A stretch of DNA of 36,170 nucleotides from Oscillospiraceae bacterium. Its GTDB lineage: Bacteria; Bacillota; Clostridia; Oscillospirales; Ruminococcaceae. Location: assembly GCA_024404875.1 (NCBI GenBank), contig JAKSPK010000025.1:1-36170 (forward strand). Reading direction: 5' to 3'. Below, in pieces: positions 16,759-23,025 of the stretch. Position numbers and translations under genes: made by a program. The notes under the pieces were generated by a model. That model did no database searches and was not told where the DNA came from. It was given only the letters and a program-made list of their open reading frames with translations. Every line of letters starts with the position of its first letter. The stretch's first letter is position 1.

Positions 16759-19248
16759 TCAGGCTTTTCCATTTGCCGTCGGCTTGGATGCTTCCTGATA
16801 CTTCCTGATAAACAGCATATAGAGCATCAGTGCGAGCAGTGCGATTGCAAAGATCAGACCGATCACATTGACATTACCGCTAAAGAGATTGCCGAGCTGT
16901 GTGATGATCAGTGCGATCGCATATGCAAAGCTGCACTGGTACAGGATCGCGAAGCAGGTCCACTTGGCATTGTTCATTTCACGCCTGATCGCACCGATTG
17001 CAGCAAAGCAGGGTGCACAGAGCAAATTGAATACAAGGAATGAGAAGCCGGTAACTCGGGTGAATGTCTGTGCAAGTTCCTGCCAGACGGTCAGATCGCC
17101 GTTTCCGTAGAGAACACCTATTGAGCCGACAATGTTCTCCTTCGCCACAAGACCGGTGACCGATGCGACCGCATTCTGCCAGTTGCCCCAGCCGAGCGGT
17201 ATGAAGATCCACGCGATCGCGCTTCCGATCTTTGCCAGGAGCGAGCTGTCAAGCTGATCCTCTTCCAGCATCGTAAAGCTGCCGTCCACAGTACCGAAGC
17301 GGGAGAGGAACCAGATCACAACCGTCGAAATCAGGATAATCGAGCCGGCCTTCTTAATGAACGACCAGCCGCGCTCCCACATCGAACGCAGAACATTGCT
17401 GAGTGTCGGCATATGATATGCAGGCAGCTCCATGACAAACGGTGACGGATCTCCGGCGAAAAGCTTGGTTTTTTTCAGCATGATGCCGGAAATAATGATC
17501 GCCGCCATTCCGATGAAATATGCAGAAACTGCAATCCACGGGGATTTGCCAAAGATCGCGCCGGCGATCATGGCGATAAACGGCACCTTTGCGCCGCAGG
17601 GGATGAATGTCGTGGTAATGATCGTCATGCGGCGGTCACGCTCGTTTTCGATCGTACGGCTCGCCATGATACCCGGAACACCGCAGCCCGTACCGACCAG
17701 CATCGGAATGAACGACTTGCCGGAAAGACCGAATTTGCGGAACACTCTGTCCAGCACAAACGCAATACGCGCCATATAGCCGCAGGCTTCGAGGAATGCA
17801 AGCAGCAGAAACAGTACGAGCATCTGCGGGACAAAGCCCAGCACCGCGCCGACGCCGGCAACGATACCGTCAAGGATCAGACCTTTCAGCCAGTCAGCAG
17901 CGCCCGCCTTGTCAAGGCCGCTCTCAACCAGCGACGGGATGCTCGGCACAAATGTGCCGTATTCCGCAGGATCCGGCGCATCGAAGCCGTTCTTCTCGAA
18001 GTATTCCACGCCCTCCTTAAAGGAGACGCCGATCACATCATCTTCGTTCGTATCCGCCGGAACGGAGTCGAAATACACCGTCTTTTGAAGCGTTTCGAGG
18101 GTTTCCTCATCCTCCAGAGTGATGACTACGGAGGCCTCGCCAGTCACTTCCTTCATCTCAGCGAGAGCGCTGTCCGCATCAAAGTCCTCTGCCTCCGGAT
18201 CCAGCTCATAATATGCGCTGACAGCATTTGCCGCATCGTCATATTCGCCTGCCTTTTCCTCATATTCCTGCGCACCCATGCCGAAAAGGTGGAAGCCATC
18301 GCCGAAGAGATTGTCATTCGTCCAGTCAGTCGCCCATGCGCCCGGCCCCATCATGGCAATCAGATAAACGAGAAACATAATCGCCGCAAAGATCGGCAGG
18401 CCGAAGATGCGGTGTGTAACGATCCTGTCGATCTTATCGGAGGACGAGAGCTGTCCGGCGCTCTTTTTCTTGTAGCAGCCCTTGATGACCTCTGCGATAT
18501 AATTATACCGCTCATTCGTGATAATGCTTTCCGCATCGTCATCGAGTTCATTCTCCGCTGCTGCGATATCGCCCTCGATGTGCTTCTGCTTATCGGCAGG
18601 GATGTTCAGCTTTTCCAGTACTTTTTCGTCACGCTCAAAGATCTTGATCGCATACCAGCGCTGTTCCTCTTCCGGCATATCGTGAACGACCGCTTCTTCA
18701 ATATGTGCGATCGCGTGCTCAACAGGCCCGGAGAAATTGTGCTGCGGAAGGGTCTTTCCGCCCTTTGCAGCTTCGATCGCTGCCTCGGCAGCCTGGTCAA
18801 TTCCGGTGCCCTTCAGCGCGGAGATCTCAACGATCTCGCAGCCGAGCTGACGGGAAAGCTCCTGCACATTGATCTTGTCGCCGTTCTTCTCGACGACATC
18901 CATCATGTTGATTGCAATGACGACCGGAATGCCCAGCTCAACGAGCTGTGTTGTCAGATAGAGGTTACGCTCCAGATTCGTGCCGTCGATGATATTAAGA
19001 ATTGCATTCGGGCGCTCACCGATCAGATAATTACGCGCAACGACCTCCTCCAGCGTATACGGCGAGAGCGAGTAGATGCCGGGCAGATCGGTGATGATGA
19101 CATCATCATGCTTTTTGAGCTTACCCTCTTTCTTTTCGACAGTGACACCCGGCCAGTTTCCGACAAACTGATTCGAGCCGGTCAGAGCATTAAACAGTGT
19201 CGTTTTACCAGCGTTGGGGTTTCCGGCAAGGGCGATTCGGAGTATCAT
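16759..19248 (-). CDS. feoB: Ferrous iron transporter FeoB
   Basis: 829 residues. Imports Fe2+ through the membrane using an N-terminal GTPase. The G motifs are GNPNAGKT (9-16), GVTVE (34-38), DLPG (54-57), NMMD (114-117) and SALKG (143-147). The membrane part has the Gate/core signatures GCGVPGIMASRT and IPCGAKVPF, and LEACGYMAR. It is longer than usual (often 650-770) because of an acidic segment of about 110 residues (about 325-436), between the first span and the GIVAGVGAVLGFVP span. That loop should face outside and may bind metal (inference). It lies 74 nt behind feoA and is followed by the Cys-rich partner. Expected to be repressed by iron via the box at 19840-19858. Confidence 0.97.
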   Translation of the reverse strand: MILRIALAGNPNAGKTTLFNALTGSNQFVGNWPGVTVEKKEGKLKKHDDVIITDLPGIYSLSPYTLEEVVARNYLIGERPNAILNIIDGTNLERNLYLTTQLVELGIPVVIAINMMDVVEKNGDKINVQELSRQLGCEIVEISALKGTGIDQAAEAAIEAAKGGKTLPQHNFSGPVEHAIAHIEEAVVHDMPEEEQRWYAIKIFERDEKVLEKLNIPADKQKHIEGDIAAAENELDDDAESIITNERYNYIAEVIKGCYKKKSAGQLSSSDKIDRIVTHRIFGLPIFAAIMFLVYLIAMMGPGAWATDWTNDNLFGDGFHLFGMGAQEYEEKAGEYDDAANAVSAYYELDPEAEDFDADSALAEMKEVTGEASVVITLEDEETLETLQKTVYFDSVPADTNEDDVIGVSFKEGVEYFEKNGFDAPDPAEYGTFVPSIPSLVESGLDKAGAADWLKGLILDGIVAGVGAVLGFVPQMLVLFLLLAFLEACGYMARIAFVLDRVFRKFGLSGKSFIPMLVGTGCGVPGIMASRTIENERDRRMTIITTTFIPCGAKVPFIAMIAGAIFGKSPWIAVSAYFIGMAAIIISGIMLKKTKLFAGDPSPFVMELPAYHMPTLSNVLRSMWERGWSFIKKAGSIILISTVVIWFLSRFGTVDGSFTMLEEDQLDSSLLAKIGSAIAWIFIPLGWGNWQNAVASVTGLVAKENIVGSIGVLYGNGDLTVWQELAQTFTRVTGFSFLVFNLLCAPCFAAIGAIRREMNNAKWTCFAILYQCSFAYAIALIITQLGNLFSGNVNVIGLIFAIALLALMLYMLFIRKYQEASKPTANGKA

Positions 19249-19262
19249 TCACTTTTCTTCCT

Positions 19263-19281
19263 TTCAGTTAATCTATGCTAA
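19263..19281 (-). promoter_or_regulatory. Possible second DtxR-like half-conserved box before feoB
   Basis: The minus strand reads TTAGCATAGATTAACTGAA, agreeing at about 13 of 19 positions with the DtxR/IdeR consensus, 15 nt upstream of the feoB ATG. A separate perfect inverted repeat (GGAGACA, CC, TGTCTCC) lies at 19293-19308. Both could be chance. Confidence 0.3.
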
Positions 19282-19322
19282 TCGCAGAGCAGGGAGACAC
19301 CTGTCTCCTATTTGATGCTGTA

Positions 19323-19544
19323 TTATTCGACCTCGATCAGCTCTGCATCCGCCTTGCGAATTGAAAGCTCATAGCCGCGTACGGTCAGCTCCAGCGGATC
19401 GCCGAGCGGTGCGACCTTGCGTACATAGACCTCAACGCCTTTGGTCAATCCCATATCCATGATGCGGCGCTTAATCGCGCCCTCACCGTGCAGCTTCTTC
19501 ACCTTTGCGCTGCCGCCGACAGGCACCTCACGCAGTGTTTTCAT
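19323..19544 (-). CDS. feoA: FeoA-family protein (second copy in the operon)
   Basis: 73 residues, a small SH3-like beta-barrel that works with FeoB in ferrous iron uptake. The family pattern is present: an N-terminal LREVPVGGSAKVKKLHGEGAIKRRIMDMGL, then GVEVYVRKVAPLGDPLELTVRGYELSIRKADAELIEV. A GAGGG site lies 9 nt upstream of the ATG. It is transcribed between the first feoA and feoB. Two FeoA proteins per operon are common in clostridia. Confidence 0.93.
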   Translation of the reverse strand: MKTLREVPVGGSAKVKKLHGEGAIKRRIMDMGLTKGVEVYVRKVAPLGDPLELTVRGYELSIRKADAELIEVE

Positions 19545-19591
19545 ATCTCATTCCCTCACTTTCTCCGCAGTGCTCTGCAGAAGCATTCTGT

Positions 19592-19804
19592 TCAGACCAT
19601 AATCTTTCTTGCCATATCCTCGCCAATAGCGATGCGGGATTCCTTGACCTTGACAATCACATTTCCGCCGAGGACACTAATCAATGAAACTGTTGCGCCG
19701 ACCGTAAAGCCGAGTGTTTCCAGATGCTGCCGAAGCTCCTGATTTCCGCCGACTTTCCGGATCGTAAGCGGAACATTCTGGTCTGCAATACTAAGCGGAA
19801 TCAT
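19592..19804 (-). CDS. feoA: FeoA-family protein (first gene of the feo operon)
   Basis: 70 residues with the FeoA pattern: MIPLSIADQNVPLTIRKVGG, then LRQHLETLGFTVGATVSLISVLGGNVIVKVKESRIAIGEDMARKI. It is clearly diverged from the second copy (few identical residues), so the two are probably not interchangeable. It begins the operon, behind a sigma-A promoter and iron-type operator. An AAGGA site lies upstream of the ATG at 19804. Confidence 0.93.
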   Translation of the reverse strand: MIPLSIADQNVPLTIRKVGGNQELRQHLETLGFTVGATVSLISVLGGNVIVKVKESRIAIGEDMARKIMV

Positions 19805-19897: not shown

Positions 19898-20172
19898 CGA
19901 TCCGCAGAACTTTTTCTGATTTTTGGCATTTCGCGAAATTCATCGCTGAAAGCGCAGAGTACTTTCAGTCAAAATGCACACCCCTTGACAAATCGTCATC
20001 ACTGCACAGTAAAGCAGTCCATCCGTCTGATCTTCCGCATCACCGAGACTCCCAAACCAGGCAAGCAGGCTCTTTCCGGCATCATTCTTGTTTCGTTTTT
20101 CCTATATTCATACGAAGAATGCAATGAGAATCCGAACCAAAATGCTCATAAGATGACCGCTGAAAATGCAGA
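19898..20172. other. Intergenic region with short palindromes between feo and the RCK-RyR gene
   Basis: No gene is supported here. It holds a perfect 12-bp palindrome (ATTTCGCGAAAT, 19928-19939) and a 7-bp inverted repeat with a 9-nt gap (CTGAAAG/CTTTCAG, 19946-19968). Either could be a regulatory site. The promoter of the next gene follows at 20173. Confidence 0.4.
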
Positions 20173-20201
20173 TTGACAAACATCACGATATATGATAAAA
20201 T
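20173..20201 (+). promoter_or_regulatory. Promoter of the RCK-RyR membrane protein gene
   Basis: TTGACA at 20173-20178, a 17-nt spacer and TAAAAT at 20196-20201. Transcription would start near 20208, leaving an untranslated leader of about 158 nt. A 69-residue open frame inside the leader has no ribosome-binding site and overlaps the main gene. Confidence 0.85.
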
Positions 20202-20365
20202 GGAGCATGAAATATCATCTATTCTATCAAAAAAGTCACGGCATAAGCCGAAAAGAACGCGTATTGTGACAATCGTTGAACTCTTCGTCGAAAAGCCGAT
20301 CAACAATGGCGCTGCCGAAGTTCAAAAGTCATCAGCCCGTATAATCCAGAACGAAAGGGACAATC

Positions 20366-22981
20366 ATGGTGCTACTGAATAATCCGATCTTTGTCATACT
20401 CCTGACCGCAGCGGTGCTTCTGCTGCTGTTCCTGCCTGTACAGGCGATTCGGAAAAGCAAGCTCAAGGAGCGACAGATGGTTCTGTCGCTTTATGTGCTT
20501 ATGCTCATCTGGTTCGCACGCTTTACGGTCTATCTGTTCGGCACCTTCTCTGCAGATTCGGATATGAACAATCTCAACGCCTTTGAAGCGATCTTTGACA
20601 GCCTGATCCATGCGCTGCAAACCTTCAGCATGGACGAGGATTATACTGCATTCATCGCGGCCGGCAAGCAGACGCTGATCGCTCAGGGCTATCCGATGCT
20701 GGCCATAGTCTACGGCGGACTGATCTCCCTGCTCAATGTGCTTGCACCGATCCTCGGCGGCGCATTGCTGCTCACCATTCTGACAAAGATCTTCCCGGAG
20801 CTGCTGATCCTCTGCTATCCCTATCGGCACAAATATGTATTTTCTGCGCTCAATGAGCAGGCGGTCTGTCTGGCGGAGGATATCTGCCGCAATCAGAATT
20901 ACGAGGTACTGAATGCACTGTCGGAAAATGCCAAGCAGCCGCTGATCGTCTTCACGGATGCATACGGCGACGATGACTCGGAGCAGCATAATGAACTGCT
21001 GGAGCGGGTACAGAATCTCCGTGCACTCTGCATCAAAAAGGATTTGCGCAATCTCTCACTGCGGCTTTCTCGCTCCCTGACCTATCTGCTGATTGACGAT
21101 CAGCCGGAACATAATCTTCGTTCCTTCTCTGATCTGACCGACCCGGCGGCTGAACAGCTCTGGCCGCTGCCGAAAGAGCCCGAAAAACCTGCTACAAAAA
21201 TCGTGGTCTTTGTCCAGAAGGAACATGAAGCCGATCTGGTCAAAACTATGATGCGGCAGCGCGAACTCTCTGCTTTGCTCACCGTCCGGATTATCCATGA
21301 CTATACGAATACTGCCGTCAACCTGATGTACGATGCGCCGCTTTATCTGCCGCTGCTGGAACGCAAGCCGTGCCCTGGTCAGAAGCAGCAGCTCCGGATC
21401 GTGATTTTCGGCAGCGGCAGCATCGCCGAAGAAACGCTCCGCACGATCTACTGGTGCGGACAAATGCTGCATACGGAGGTTTCCGTCGATGTGATCTCGA
21501 AGGATGCTTCTCTATTGGAGAGCAGGCTTCGCTCCGCCTGTCCGGAGCTGCTGGCGAGCTGTGAAGCTGGTGCGGATATCCTCTCGACATTTCCCGCGTC
21601 GGAAAACAAGCGCCCCAATCCGCCGTATCTGGCACATATCGCCTTTACAAATCACCCAAATGTGCTGGATTCGGAAACGCTGGATCCGGCACTGCTCCGG
21701 CAAATGGATTACTGTATCATCGCACTCGGCTCTGACGGTACAAATCTCTCGCTGACAAATTCACTCCGGATCGAAGCAGCCAGACGGCATCTGACAGATC
21801 CATCCGTCCGCACCGTGATCGTTCCCGCGATCTTTGATCCGCAGCTCGCGGATGCCGTGCGGATCCCGGTCCCCGACAGAGACGGACTTCTGATCCTGCC
21901 TTTTGCCACACTGCGCTCACGATTCAGTGTCAAAAATGTTTTCATGCAGAACTTTATGGAGGATGCAATCGCGTCAGCCGGTCTCTACGGTCCTGACGAA
22001 CAGCGAAAAATGCTGGAGGATGAATACACATACTGGGCGAATCTTGCACGCTCCGTCCATGCGTCCTATAAGCTGTTCAGCGCAGGCATACTGGAATCCG
22101 TCGATCTGACACAAAGTGAGCAGGCACAGCGCTATCTTCTTCGAAAATGCGAAGCAGCAGATATGCTCCGGACAACACCCGCGGCAGGGCAGAAGGACGA
22201 ACCGCTGGGACGGCAGCTCGCATGGCTGGAGCATCGCCGCTGGAATGCATTCCTTCGCGCACAGGGTTTCACCTGCGCTGATGACAAGATGCACGAGGCC
22301 ATTTTCAGGCTCGGCGAAAAAGATCTGCACAAAAATCTCCGGCTGAAGCTGCATCCCTGTCTGGTCGAATGCACCGAAGAAATGCCGGCTCTCCCGGTCG
22401 ATGACGATTTTGACCGCAGCAAGCTGGACGGGCTGGATCTTGTTTCGGTGAAGCGCTGTGCGCTGGATCATCCGGAAGGCCGAACAGCTAAACGCATGCA
22501 GGACAAGAATTACAAAAAATGGGATTATCCTGCGCATGATGATACGCTGAACCAACTGCTCCGACTCAGTGCACCGGAGAATGATCCAGCCGGAAAACGG
22601 CGGTCAAAGCCGGAGGCAGTACAGATCAGATGCCCTCGCTGCCAGAAGCCGATGGAGACCGGCTGTATCCAAAGCTCCGGCCGGATCTTCTGGTCACGAA
22701 TGAAAAAAAGCCGCTTTGCAGCGCAGGATACCCATGATTACCCCATCGCGGCTGCAGGGGAATTTTTCACGCGCAGCAGCCATTCTGCATTTTTCTGCCG
22801 AAGTTGCCGGATTTTTCAGATGTCCGAGCGAAAGCAGGAAGCGCATCGCAGACCGGGCGCAGGAAGAAGTTCGAATACGCCGCAGCCGCGCAGATCTCCG
22901 AACGAACGACGCTCCGCATCACAGCATCGCCGCCTGTCGCATGAACAAGATGTGCCGTCCCGCAAGCATGGTTCCGCATAA
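20366..22981 (+). CDS. Membrane protein with RCK-like Rossmann, RyR-like and zinc-ribbon domains
   Basis: 871 residues of unassigned function. Membrane spans lie at about 5-27, 37-60 and 110-142. Residues 155-250 look like a TrkA/RCK-type Rossmann domain (KYVFSALNEQAVCLAEDI, PLIVFTDAY). Residues 342-500 are a second one with the GSGSIAEE nucleotide-binding turn and a DYCIIALGSDGTNL stretch. Residues 557-695 resemble prokaryotic RyR domains (LAWLEHRRWNAFLRAQGF, then LHPCLVECTEEMPALP). Residues 753-818 look like a zinc ribbon of the kind starting CPxC...GxIQS.GxIFW and ending CRSC (Cys756, 759, 811, 814). A basic, low-complexity tail of 50 residues follows. It has its own promoter, an AAGGGA site and a terminator directly after the stop. 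The layout suggests a ligand-gated ion-conducting or signalling membrane protein; that is inference. Confidence 0.8.
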   Translation: MVLLNNPIFVILLTAAVLLLLFLPVQAIRKSKLKERQMVLSLYVLMLIWFARFTVYLFGTFSADSDMNNLNAFEAIFDSLIHALQTFSMDEDYTAFIAAGKQTLIAQGYPMLAIVYGGLISLLNVLAPILGGALLLTILTKIFPELLILCYPYRHKYVFSALNEQAVCLAEDICRNQNYEVLNALSENAKQPLIVFTDAYGDDDSEQHNELLERVQNLRALCIKKDLRNLSLRLSRSLTYLLIDDQPEHNLRSFSDLTDPAAEQLWPLPKEPEKPATKIVVFVQKEHEADLVKTMMRQRELSALLTVRIIHDYTNTAVNLMYDAPLYLPLLERKPCPGQKQQLRIVIFGSGSIAEETLRTIYWCGQMLHTEVSVDVISKDASLLESRLRSACPELLASCEAGADILSTFPASENKRPNPPYLAHIAFTNHPNVLDSETLDPALLRQMDYCIIALGSDGTNLSLTNSLRIEAARRHLTDPSVRTVIVPAIFDPQLADAVRIPVPDRDGLLILPFATLRSRFSVKNVFMQNFMEDAIASAGLYGPDEQRKMLEDEYTYWANLARSVHASYKLFSAGILESVDLTQSEQAQRYLLRKCEAADMLRTTPAAGQKDEPLGRQLAWLEHRRWNAFLRAQGFTCADDKMHEAIFRLGEKDLHKNLRLKLHPCLVECTEEMPALPVDDDFDRSKLDGLDLVSVKRCALDHPEGRTAKRMQDKNYKKWDYPAHDDTLNQLLRLSAPENDPAGKRRSKPEAVQIRCPRCQKPMETGCIQSSGRIFWSRMKKSRFAAQDTHDYPIAAAGEFFTRSSHSAFFCRSCRIFQMSERKQEAHRRPGAGRSSNTPQPRRSPNERRSASQHRRLSHEQDVPSRKHGSA

Positions 22982-22982
22982 C

Positions 22983-23025
22983 ATTGCGCCTGCACCGAAA
23001 ACAATCGGTGCAGGCGCAATTTTTG
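22983..23025 (+). terminator. Terminator of the RCK-RyR gene
   Basis: A 15-bp perfect stem (22983-22997 with 23006-23020), an 8-nt loop and a TTTTT run, 1 nt after the stop codon. On the minus strand there is no T run, though the U32 gene ends at 23028 just beside it. Confidence 0.92.

Follow-up and report, generated by a model that had tools for sequence, protein, structure and literature searches.

The subject of this study is an 871-amino acid (aa) membrane protein whose gene (20366..22981, + strand) lies in a 36,170-nucleotide stretch of DNA, hereafter the window, from an Oscillospiraceae bacterium of the gut (GenBank assembly GCA_024404875.1, contig JAKSPK010000025.1). The protein joins a three-span membrane part to RCK-like, RyR and zinc-ribbon parts, a layout that loosely recalls a gated channel. 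Since many of its relatives adjoin immune-signalling genes, it probably belongs to a bacterial alarm system against viruses, from which a partner gene has been lost here. Our preferred reading, for which we see about as much in favour as against, is that the protein serves an anti-phage-type operon for nucleotide signalling as its membrane effector or receptor subunit, with an ADP-ribose-type signal bound by the RyR domain, and that the gene has been orphaned in this genome. This reading builds on the anatomy of the protein, its kinship to RyR and TrkA_N domains via relatives, the conservation of residues, the gene neighbourhoods of relatives and the absence of a partner gene that accompanies its ortholog; from these observations we infer the ligand, the gating, the pore and the role in immunity. 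The original prediction, made from the sequence alone, had spoken of a ligand-gated channel or signalling effector, a proposal that the neighbours of relatives and the potassium pore of one relative (L134, see below) now make more plausible.

Mechanistically, the C-terminal RyR domain would bind an ADP-ribose-type signal of the kind that TIR enzymes make from NAD+, and the RCK-like part would pass this binding on to the membrane part, which may open a pore or disturb the membrane in another way, so that the cell would stop growing or die. The signal could be buffered or removed by the small RyR proteins whose genes lie beside many relatives. We tentatively put forward a narrower version, in which ADP-ribose-signal-gated RyR channels exist in bacteria: as a defence against viruses, an RCK-type membrane channel would open once its RyR domain has bound a cyclic ADP-ribose (cADPR) isomer made by a TIR enzyme. 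If true, this would add a channel-type effector class to TIR-based bacterial immunity, suggest a role for bacterial RyR domains and provide, in small testable proteins, a bacterial counterpart of the long-debated link between cADPR and the ryanodine receptor in animals. It would also mean that a gene which looks like an orphan can be what remains of a signalling operon.

Relatives of the protein

The protein is encoded by a single open frame of 871 codons (20366-22978) plus stop. Among 396 genomes of the same bacterial family, its own included, 19 gave a match at 1e-3; after exclusion of the own genome, five ribbon-only cases (frames of 75-94 aa) and one 52-residue fragment with stops, substantial matches remained in 12 of the 395 other genomes and in none of six from the same genus. 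Besides, named genome contigs were scanned for the pattern EH[RK]RW[NV]A[FY], which returned 244 stretches, 194 of them encoding relatives, and the best 80 (78 loci) were used. Most of these loci stem from gut Clostridia assembled from metagenomes, and the labels Cloacimonadota and Erysipelotrichaceae occur on one record each; because several are close kin, locus counts do not represent independent events. A local profile recognized 86 family genes in the 78 loci, 56 of which encode more than 640 aa (‘long’) and 30 of which are shorter, at least two of the latter (L067 and L084) being long ones cut by a contig end. Judged by profile, long and short members form one family. No homologs were found in plasmids with one short member as query, nor in phages with the 871-aa protein as query. 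Three distant relatives (L031, L032 and L034; 891-1019 aa, L031 being cut by a contig end) retain the RyR-like C terminus, and L032 and L034 come without the three-span start.

RyR domain and putative ligand residues

In Pfam searches with the 871-aa protein alone, the zinc ribbon DUF6487 was the sole significant match, a transporter match staying sub-threshold (E 0.19), and the RyR and RCK claims therefore rest on relatives. PADLOC and NCBIfam gave no match to the protein alone; a PDB sequence search returned six lactose permease entries (E 1.3 or worse), and a profile of alignment A1, the ten sequences from a whole-protein search, gave one chance match in the PDB (E 7.5). A lack of RyR-like and RCK-like matches had been named beforehand as grounds for rejecting the predicted fusion: such matches are indeed lacking with single-sequence Pfam, whereas they do emerge from family profiles and from a PDB search with the relative L103.

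The RyR domain, delimited by profiles, the L103 search and alignments, covers residues ~612-725 (22199..22540, +) and includes the HPCLVECTEE region that had been predicted as RyR-like. While single-sequence Pfam does not back this prediction, a C-terminal profile of the family matched small bacterial RyR proteins at 97.6% for short members and at 91.2% for all members; the RyR pattern is uninterrupted in short members, and an insert is present in long ones. Moreover, the last 110 aa of L103 matched solved RyR domains (6uhi, 2.7e-15; 6uag, 9.8e-8; RyR3, 1.7e-4). L103 scores 6.9e-147 against the family profile and sits beside the 871-aa protein in alignment A2, assembled from the pattern-fetched sequences, so that the 871-aa protein can be counted as homologous to solved RyR domains by transitivity only.

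RyDEP is a phage protein that cleaves cADPR, with the ligand residues H75, W78, H100 and D117 (spaced +3, +25 and +42 from H75; PMC13232231); the same paper reports that six of eight RyDEP homologs bound signals and that other tested homologs lacked cleavage. H623, W626, H663 and D720 of the 871-aa protein correspond by alignment to the RyDEP residues and are its putative ligand residues. In A2, H and W are found in 66/66 sequences, an invariance given by construction because the fetching pattern contains them; both are likewise invariant in the ten sequences of A1, which were not chosen by pattern. H663 is kept in 65/66 sequences of A2. An aspartate stands at fixed spacing in 15/15 short members, and in long members D720 was assigned across the insert by the motif [KR].[YWM]D after H663 (50/51) instead of by fixed spacing. 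The 36 small RyR open reading frames (ORFs), a few rows of which are one gene fetched twice, were found with a profile built from ten ORFs that had themselves been chosen by their H..W pattern; they carry H, W and D in the RyDEP-equivalent columns in 36/36 cases. At the place of the phosphate-contacting H100, these small proteins (L035-L142) have T in 28 cases, H in 7 and N in 1, as compared to H in 65/66 family members.

RCK-like blocks, membrane part and a potassium-channel relative

Downstream of the membrane part, the original prediction had seen two RCK-like Rossmann blocks, of which one held up. The second (~340-530; 21383..21955, +), featuring GSGSIAEE, is TrkA_N/RCK_N-like: via the family alignment, its profile matched TrkA_N in hhalign at 95.6% for all members and at 87.9% for short members only, the controls ThiF and saccharopine dehydrogenase reaching 21.5% and 1.9%. 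The segment DYxxxALGxDxxN is aligned in this match, and of 20 column shuffles each the best scored 1.3% for the RyR match and 0.7% for the TrkA_N match of block 2. Single-sequence Pfam gave no TrkA_N match in the 871-aa protein, and a PDB search with block 2 returned 2g1u alone (E 0.58, not significant), which we take to be TrkA-like, its PDB record reading hypothetical protein. The first block (~153-337; 20822..21376, +), ending in PLIVFTDAY, found no support as RCK: the TrkA_N profile scored 0.7-1.2%, and a PDB search gave nothing credible. It shares homology with what comes after the pore in L134 (36 bits, E 1.3e-13 in a database of one). Thus, the predicted fusion stands with regard to spans, second block, RyR domain and ribbon, yet not for the RCK nature of the first block.

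Kyte-Doolittle peaks at residues 7-25, 39-57, 120-138 and 132-150 were taken to mark three spans, of which the third is long, in agreement with the three membrane segments originally predicted. Span 1 (residues 7-25; 20384..20440, +) reaches a hydropathy of 2.82 and span 2 (residues 39-57; 20480..20536, +) one of 1.89, and span 3 (residues 118-150; 20717..20815, +), placed by hydropathy and alignment, contains a conserved AP(I/V)xGG (P128 in 63/65). The stretch that separates spans 2 and 3, the expected place of a pore helix and filter, holds a conserved loop or re-entrant-like motif, S(L/F)(I/V)HALQTFSMDEDY (residues 76-96; 20591..20653, +; F87 62/65, D90 55/65, Q85 50/65). The TVGYG filter is absent from the 871-aa protein, which has this SMDEDY-like loop motif instead.

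L134, a 520-aa protein from the same bacterial family, carries an Ion_trans_2 pore (2.7e-13) with the filter TLTTVGYGD as well as an RyR domain (PF02026, 1.4e-6, 28.9 bits against a cut-off of 27.4), and a TIR gene begins 21 bases after its gene. Its cytoplasmic part is homologous to the membrane-RyR family (54 bits), and its pore alone gives no match (-1 bit). Owing to this combination of a K+ pore with a homologous cytoplasmic part, the module occupies, in at least one relative, the place expected of a channel-gating module. The L134 cytoplasmic part also matches RyR proteins from frames of ~476-511 aa. Four RyR proteins of ~470-490 aa (L129, L131, L132 and L133), their N terminus hydrophobic by reading and each with a TIR gene within 100 bases, make up a third subtype related to this cytoplasmic part. 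As a K+ pore, the family membrane part was rejected in a comparison with 8/22 pore sequences, in which long and short members scored 0.3-0.4%, the 470-510-aa subtype 2.5% and L134's own pore, the positive control, 98.8%.

Gene neighbourhoods of relatives

In the 78 loci, neighbours were counted up to 8 kb from the family gene or to the contig end. A TIR gene is found at 25 of them (12 within 300 bp), a small RyR gene at 21 (18 within 300 bp, all on the same strand), an AAA-FtsH gene at 14 (12 within 300 bp) and, by local profile, a CARF nuclease gene at 13; at least one of these four partners occurs at 47/78 loci. The AAA-FtsH protein of L041 contains AAA_2, AAA and Peptidase_M41 domains, and the partner nucleases of L035 and L075 match PADLOC CARF4--CARF_PDDEXK. 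At L075 the gene order is nuclease, short member, AAA-FtsH, long member, small RyR, parts of which are found elsewhere. Thirty aligned TIRs share an invariant glutamate column, presumably catalytic. With respect to density, 29 TIR ORFs in 1.10 Mb of loci compare to 34 TIR_2 matches in 61 family genomes (~0.25/Mb, from rounded sizes), a comparison valid to an order of magnitude only because profiles and taxa differ. In a sample drawn by the RyR profile only (30 of 42 matches), a TIR gene lay within 1.5 kb at 9/30 RyR loci vs 0/67 controls (TrkA_N 30, ThiF 20, saccharopine dehydrogenase 17); family-related genes were present at 11 of the 30 RyR loci, two of them among the nine flanked by TIR. 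SIR2 and macro domains had no Pfam match in the 871-aa protein or in 29 distinct neighbour proteins of relatives that were scanned.

Some loci differ in composition. A RyR-TIR pairing beyond the membrane family occurs at L126 (37-3014), where a TIR gene follows, after 26 bases, the gene for a 562-aa protein that matches HD weakly (E 0.02) and has an RyR domain at its C terminus (PF02026, 4.5e-15). In L036 (5897-8390) there are two consecutive TIR proteins, one with a weak tubulin-like N terminus and the other with CARF-HEPN-type PADLOC matches (1.2e-8). L100 (9597-15350), L085 and L105 share a different recurrent partner set, in which the family gene precedes genes for a protein of 727-792 aa (matching von Willebrand A weakly in L085) and for a large protein (Tubulin_2 in L100, 7.5e-56).

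A partner gene missing from the window

The window can be compared with L035 (Ruminococcus sp. UBA4350), whose family gene is a 71% ortholog; 23 bases upstream of it ends a gene for 451 aa. The latter matches PADLOC CARF4--CARF_PDDEXK at 2.6e-19 and the Pfam Card1 endonuclease at 0.19 only, while its relatives in L088 and L046 reach 5.9e-8 and 5.5e-6 with the same Pfam profile. In the window, a leader upstream of the 871-aa gene (20165..20307, +) is conserved with L035 6384-6524 (82.5% DNA identity over 143 bases, 3.5e-35). It comprises a promoter-like TTGACA-17-TAAAAT from the promoter scan (11/12; 20173-20201, +), in DNA conserved upstream of the L035 nuclease gene, and a stub (20266..20307, +) that aligns with the N-terminal 14 codons of this Card1-like CARF-PD-(D/E)XK nuclease gene. 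Some 1.27 kb of L035 (6525-7796) is then absent from the window, and window positions 20306-22697 align with L035 7797-10199 (76.2%), the last 42 bases of the nuclease gene included. As the two alignments flank this gap, the bulk of the nuclease gene is missing, with 14 codons and a short 3' stretch kept. There may be an assembly error at the junction.

Compared with its ortholog, the 871-aa gene thus appears not to be natively stand-alone. The original prediction had called it so, which is accurate within the window, yet only because the upstream CARF-nuclease partner is missing relative to L035; likewise, the statement that it belongs to no defence island is true of the window only, given the partners at 47/78 related loci and the nuclease stub that the window keeps. 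We regard the gene as an orphan because this partner is missing and because neither a TIR gene nor a second RyR gene is present on the same contig. Partners elsewhere could have been missed, since the genome is a draft of 114 contigs that is ~86.9% complete. The strong promoter and terminator that had been predicted find counterparts in the 11/12 promoter-like site and in a terminator-like hairpin with a 16-bp stem from the terminator scan (22983..23020, +), yet the counts of such sites are not above those in shuffles (3 vs 2.7 promoter-like and 2 vs 2.8 terminator-like sites).

Weighing the readings

Several results weigh against the preferred reading. PF02026 gave nothing above the gathering cut-off in the 871-aa protein, and none at the gene even at E 1; long members alone, to which this protein belongs, match the RyR profile at 28.8%, in the same register. 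The choice of sequences by pattern, noted above for A2 and for the small RyR profile, reduces what the H and W columns can say. The family's membrane part contains no canonical K+ filter, and its long and short members match K+ pores (PF07885) at 0.1-0.6%, with shuffles scoring up to 0.5%; the full-length L134 architecture occurs in 1/396 genomes. As for the neighbourhoods, 31/78 loci have none of the four partners, some of their contigs ending near the gene, the CARF nuclease lies within 300 bp at only 5/13 loci, and few loci hold pairs (TIR with small RyR at 4, TIR with CARF nuclease at 2). Lastly, the single TIR_2 match in the own genome lies on a different contig, and a PF02026 search revealed no further RyR gene, the one RyR match being false (an acetolactate-synthase-like ORF by reading).

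Among other explanations, the gene could be a decaying relic in this genome, functionless after partner loss, which is compatible with the preferred reading of the family and which we deem possible but less likely than not. The missing partner gene, the contig without TIR or second RyR gene and the fast divergence of tail and ribbon would all fit a relic, yet the 871 codons are free of stops and the ratio of nonsynonymous to synonymous substitution rates (Ka/Ks) against L035 is 0.22 overall (860 codons), with 0.15-0.25 across the membrane (0.165), Rossmann and RyR parts and 0.33 in the ribbon; this pairwise value averages over time before the loss. That the protein is a receptor without a pore we judge unlikely. 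In such a case, the membrane part would serve for anchoring only, and the RCK-RyR part would act, depending on the signal, as a platform to recruit or activate the neighbouring AAA-FtsH protease or CARF nuclease, as might be expected from a membrane part without homology to known pores, from the AAA-FtsH genes at 14/78 and CARF nucleases at 13/78 loci and from the distant relatives L032 and L034, which do without the three-span start. However, such strong conservation as the loop between spans 2 and 3 shows is unexpected in a plain anchor, and in L134 a module of this kind is attached to a real channel.

Two further readings are an off-switch and a housekeeping role. The RyR domain of the protein might be a membrane-tethered glycosidase or sponge that takes away the ADP-ribose-type signal and keeps the response in check, in the way RyDEP acts for phages; counterparts of both residues of the RyDEP catalytic dyad (PMC13232231) are present. 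We nonetheless find this quite improbable, as the other RyDEP homologs tested in that paper lacked cleavage, a pure hydrolase has no need of a three-span RCK-like body and the adjoining small RyR proteins could do the removal instead. Least probable, in our view, is a housekeeping role in ion or redox homeostasis, with an RCK-type channel or transporter regulator that reads NAD-derived nucleotides outside immunity. The TrkA_N-like block and the citrate-transporter-type genes that adjoin the relatives in L060 and L044 would suit such a role, in contrast to the patchy presence (12/395 genomes), the TIR and CARF-nuclease neighbours and the spread to records labelled Cloacimonadota and Erysipelotrichaceae.

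Relation to known systems

The preferred reading, of a signalling-operon effector, can be set beside several known systems. With RyDEP (PMC13232231), the protein shares RyR/R12 (PF02026) kinship and H, W, H and D at equivalent places; RyDEP, however, is a small phage anti-defence protein and cADPR glycosidase or sponge, as opposed to a bacterial membrane protein with RCK-like blocks that is known from sequence. Animal ryanodine receptors likewise couple RyR domains to a membrane protein, and LHPCLVE here resembles QHPCLVE of RyR2 repeat 1, yet the body is RyR-type there and RCK-like here, and four RyR stretches were matched in RyR2 against one in the 871-aa protein. RCK-gated potassium channels (MthK-like) resemble it in the TrkA_N-like block after the spans, and L134 has its TVGYGD pore in the same place; in contrast, the 871-aa protein possesses an RyR domain and neither the TVGYG filter nor detectable K+ pore homology. 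As in Thoeris (TIR and ThsA), TIR genes with an invariant glutamate lie beside many relatives and the signal is putatively of ADP-ribose type, but the effector would be an RyR-RCK membrane protein, SIR2 and macro domains were unmatched in the 29 scanned neighbours and the window contig has no TIR. Card1 (CARF-PD-(D/E)XK nuclease) has its likeness in the partners of L035 and L075, through their match to PADLOC CARF4--CARF_PDDEXK, and a local profile of these matches 13 loci in all; what differs is the linkage of such nucleases to RyR-RCK membrane proteins.

In the literature searched, we did not find RyR proteins described as TIR effectors, though a 2025 preprint on TIR systems may already describe such proteins. 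Nor did this literature contain a paper combining a bacterial RyR domain, RCK and the ryanodine receptor, one combining RyR, TIR and prokaryotic conflict systems, one with TIR domain, RCK, ion channel and anti-phage, or one on DUF6487.

Ribbon, tail and further genes

The CxxC...CxxC ribbon of the original prediction was confirmed as DUF6487 at residues 756-817 (22631..22816, +; Pfam E 3.6e-11, 43.8 bits against a cut-off of 24), and it is likewise fused in the ortholog L035, where it aligns with that of the 871-aa protein. Behind it follows a little conserved tail rich in Arg, Ser and Pro (22826..22978, +; 38% identity to L035 over 40 codons). Elsewhere in the own genome, the TIR_2 match (L211 6807-7856, contig C45) is a TIR with a repeat-rich tail, and the gene that follows it encodes, by reading, a YchF-like GTPase. 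In the window, divergent from the 871-aa gene, the opposite strand (16759-19804, -) encodes, by reading, a FeoB-like ferrous iron transporter and two small FeoA-like genes.

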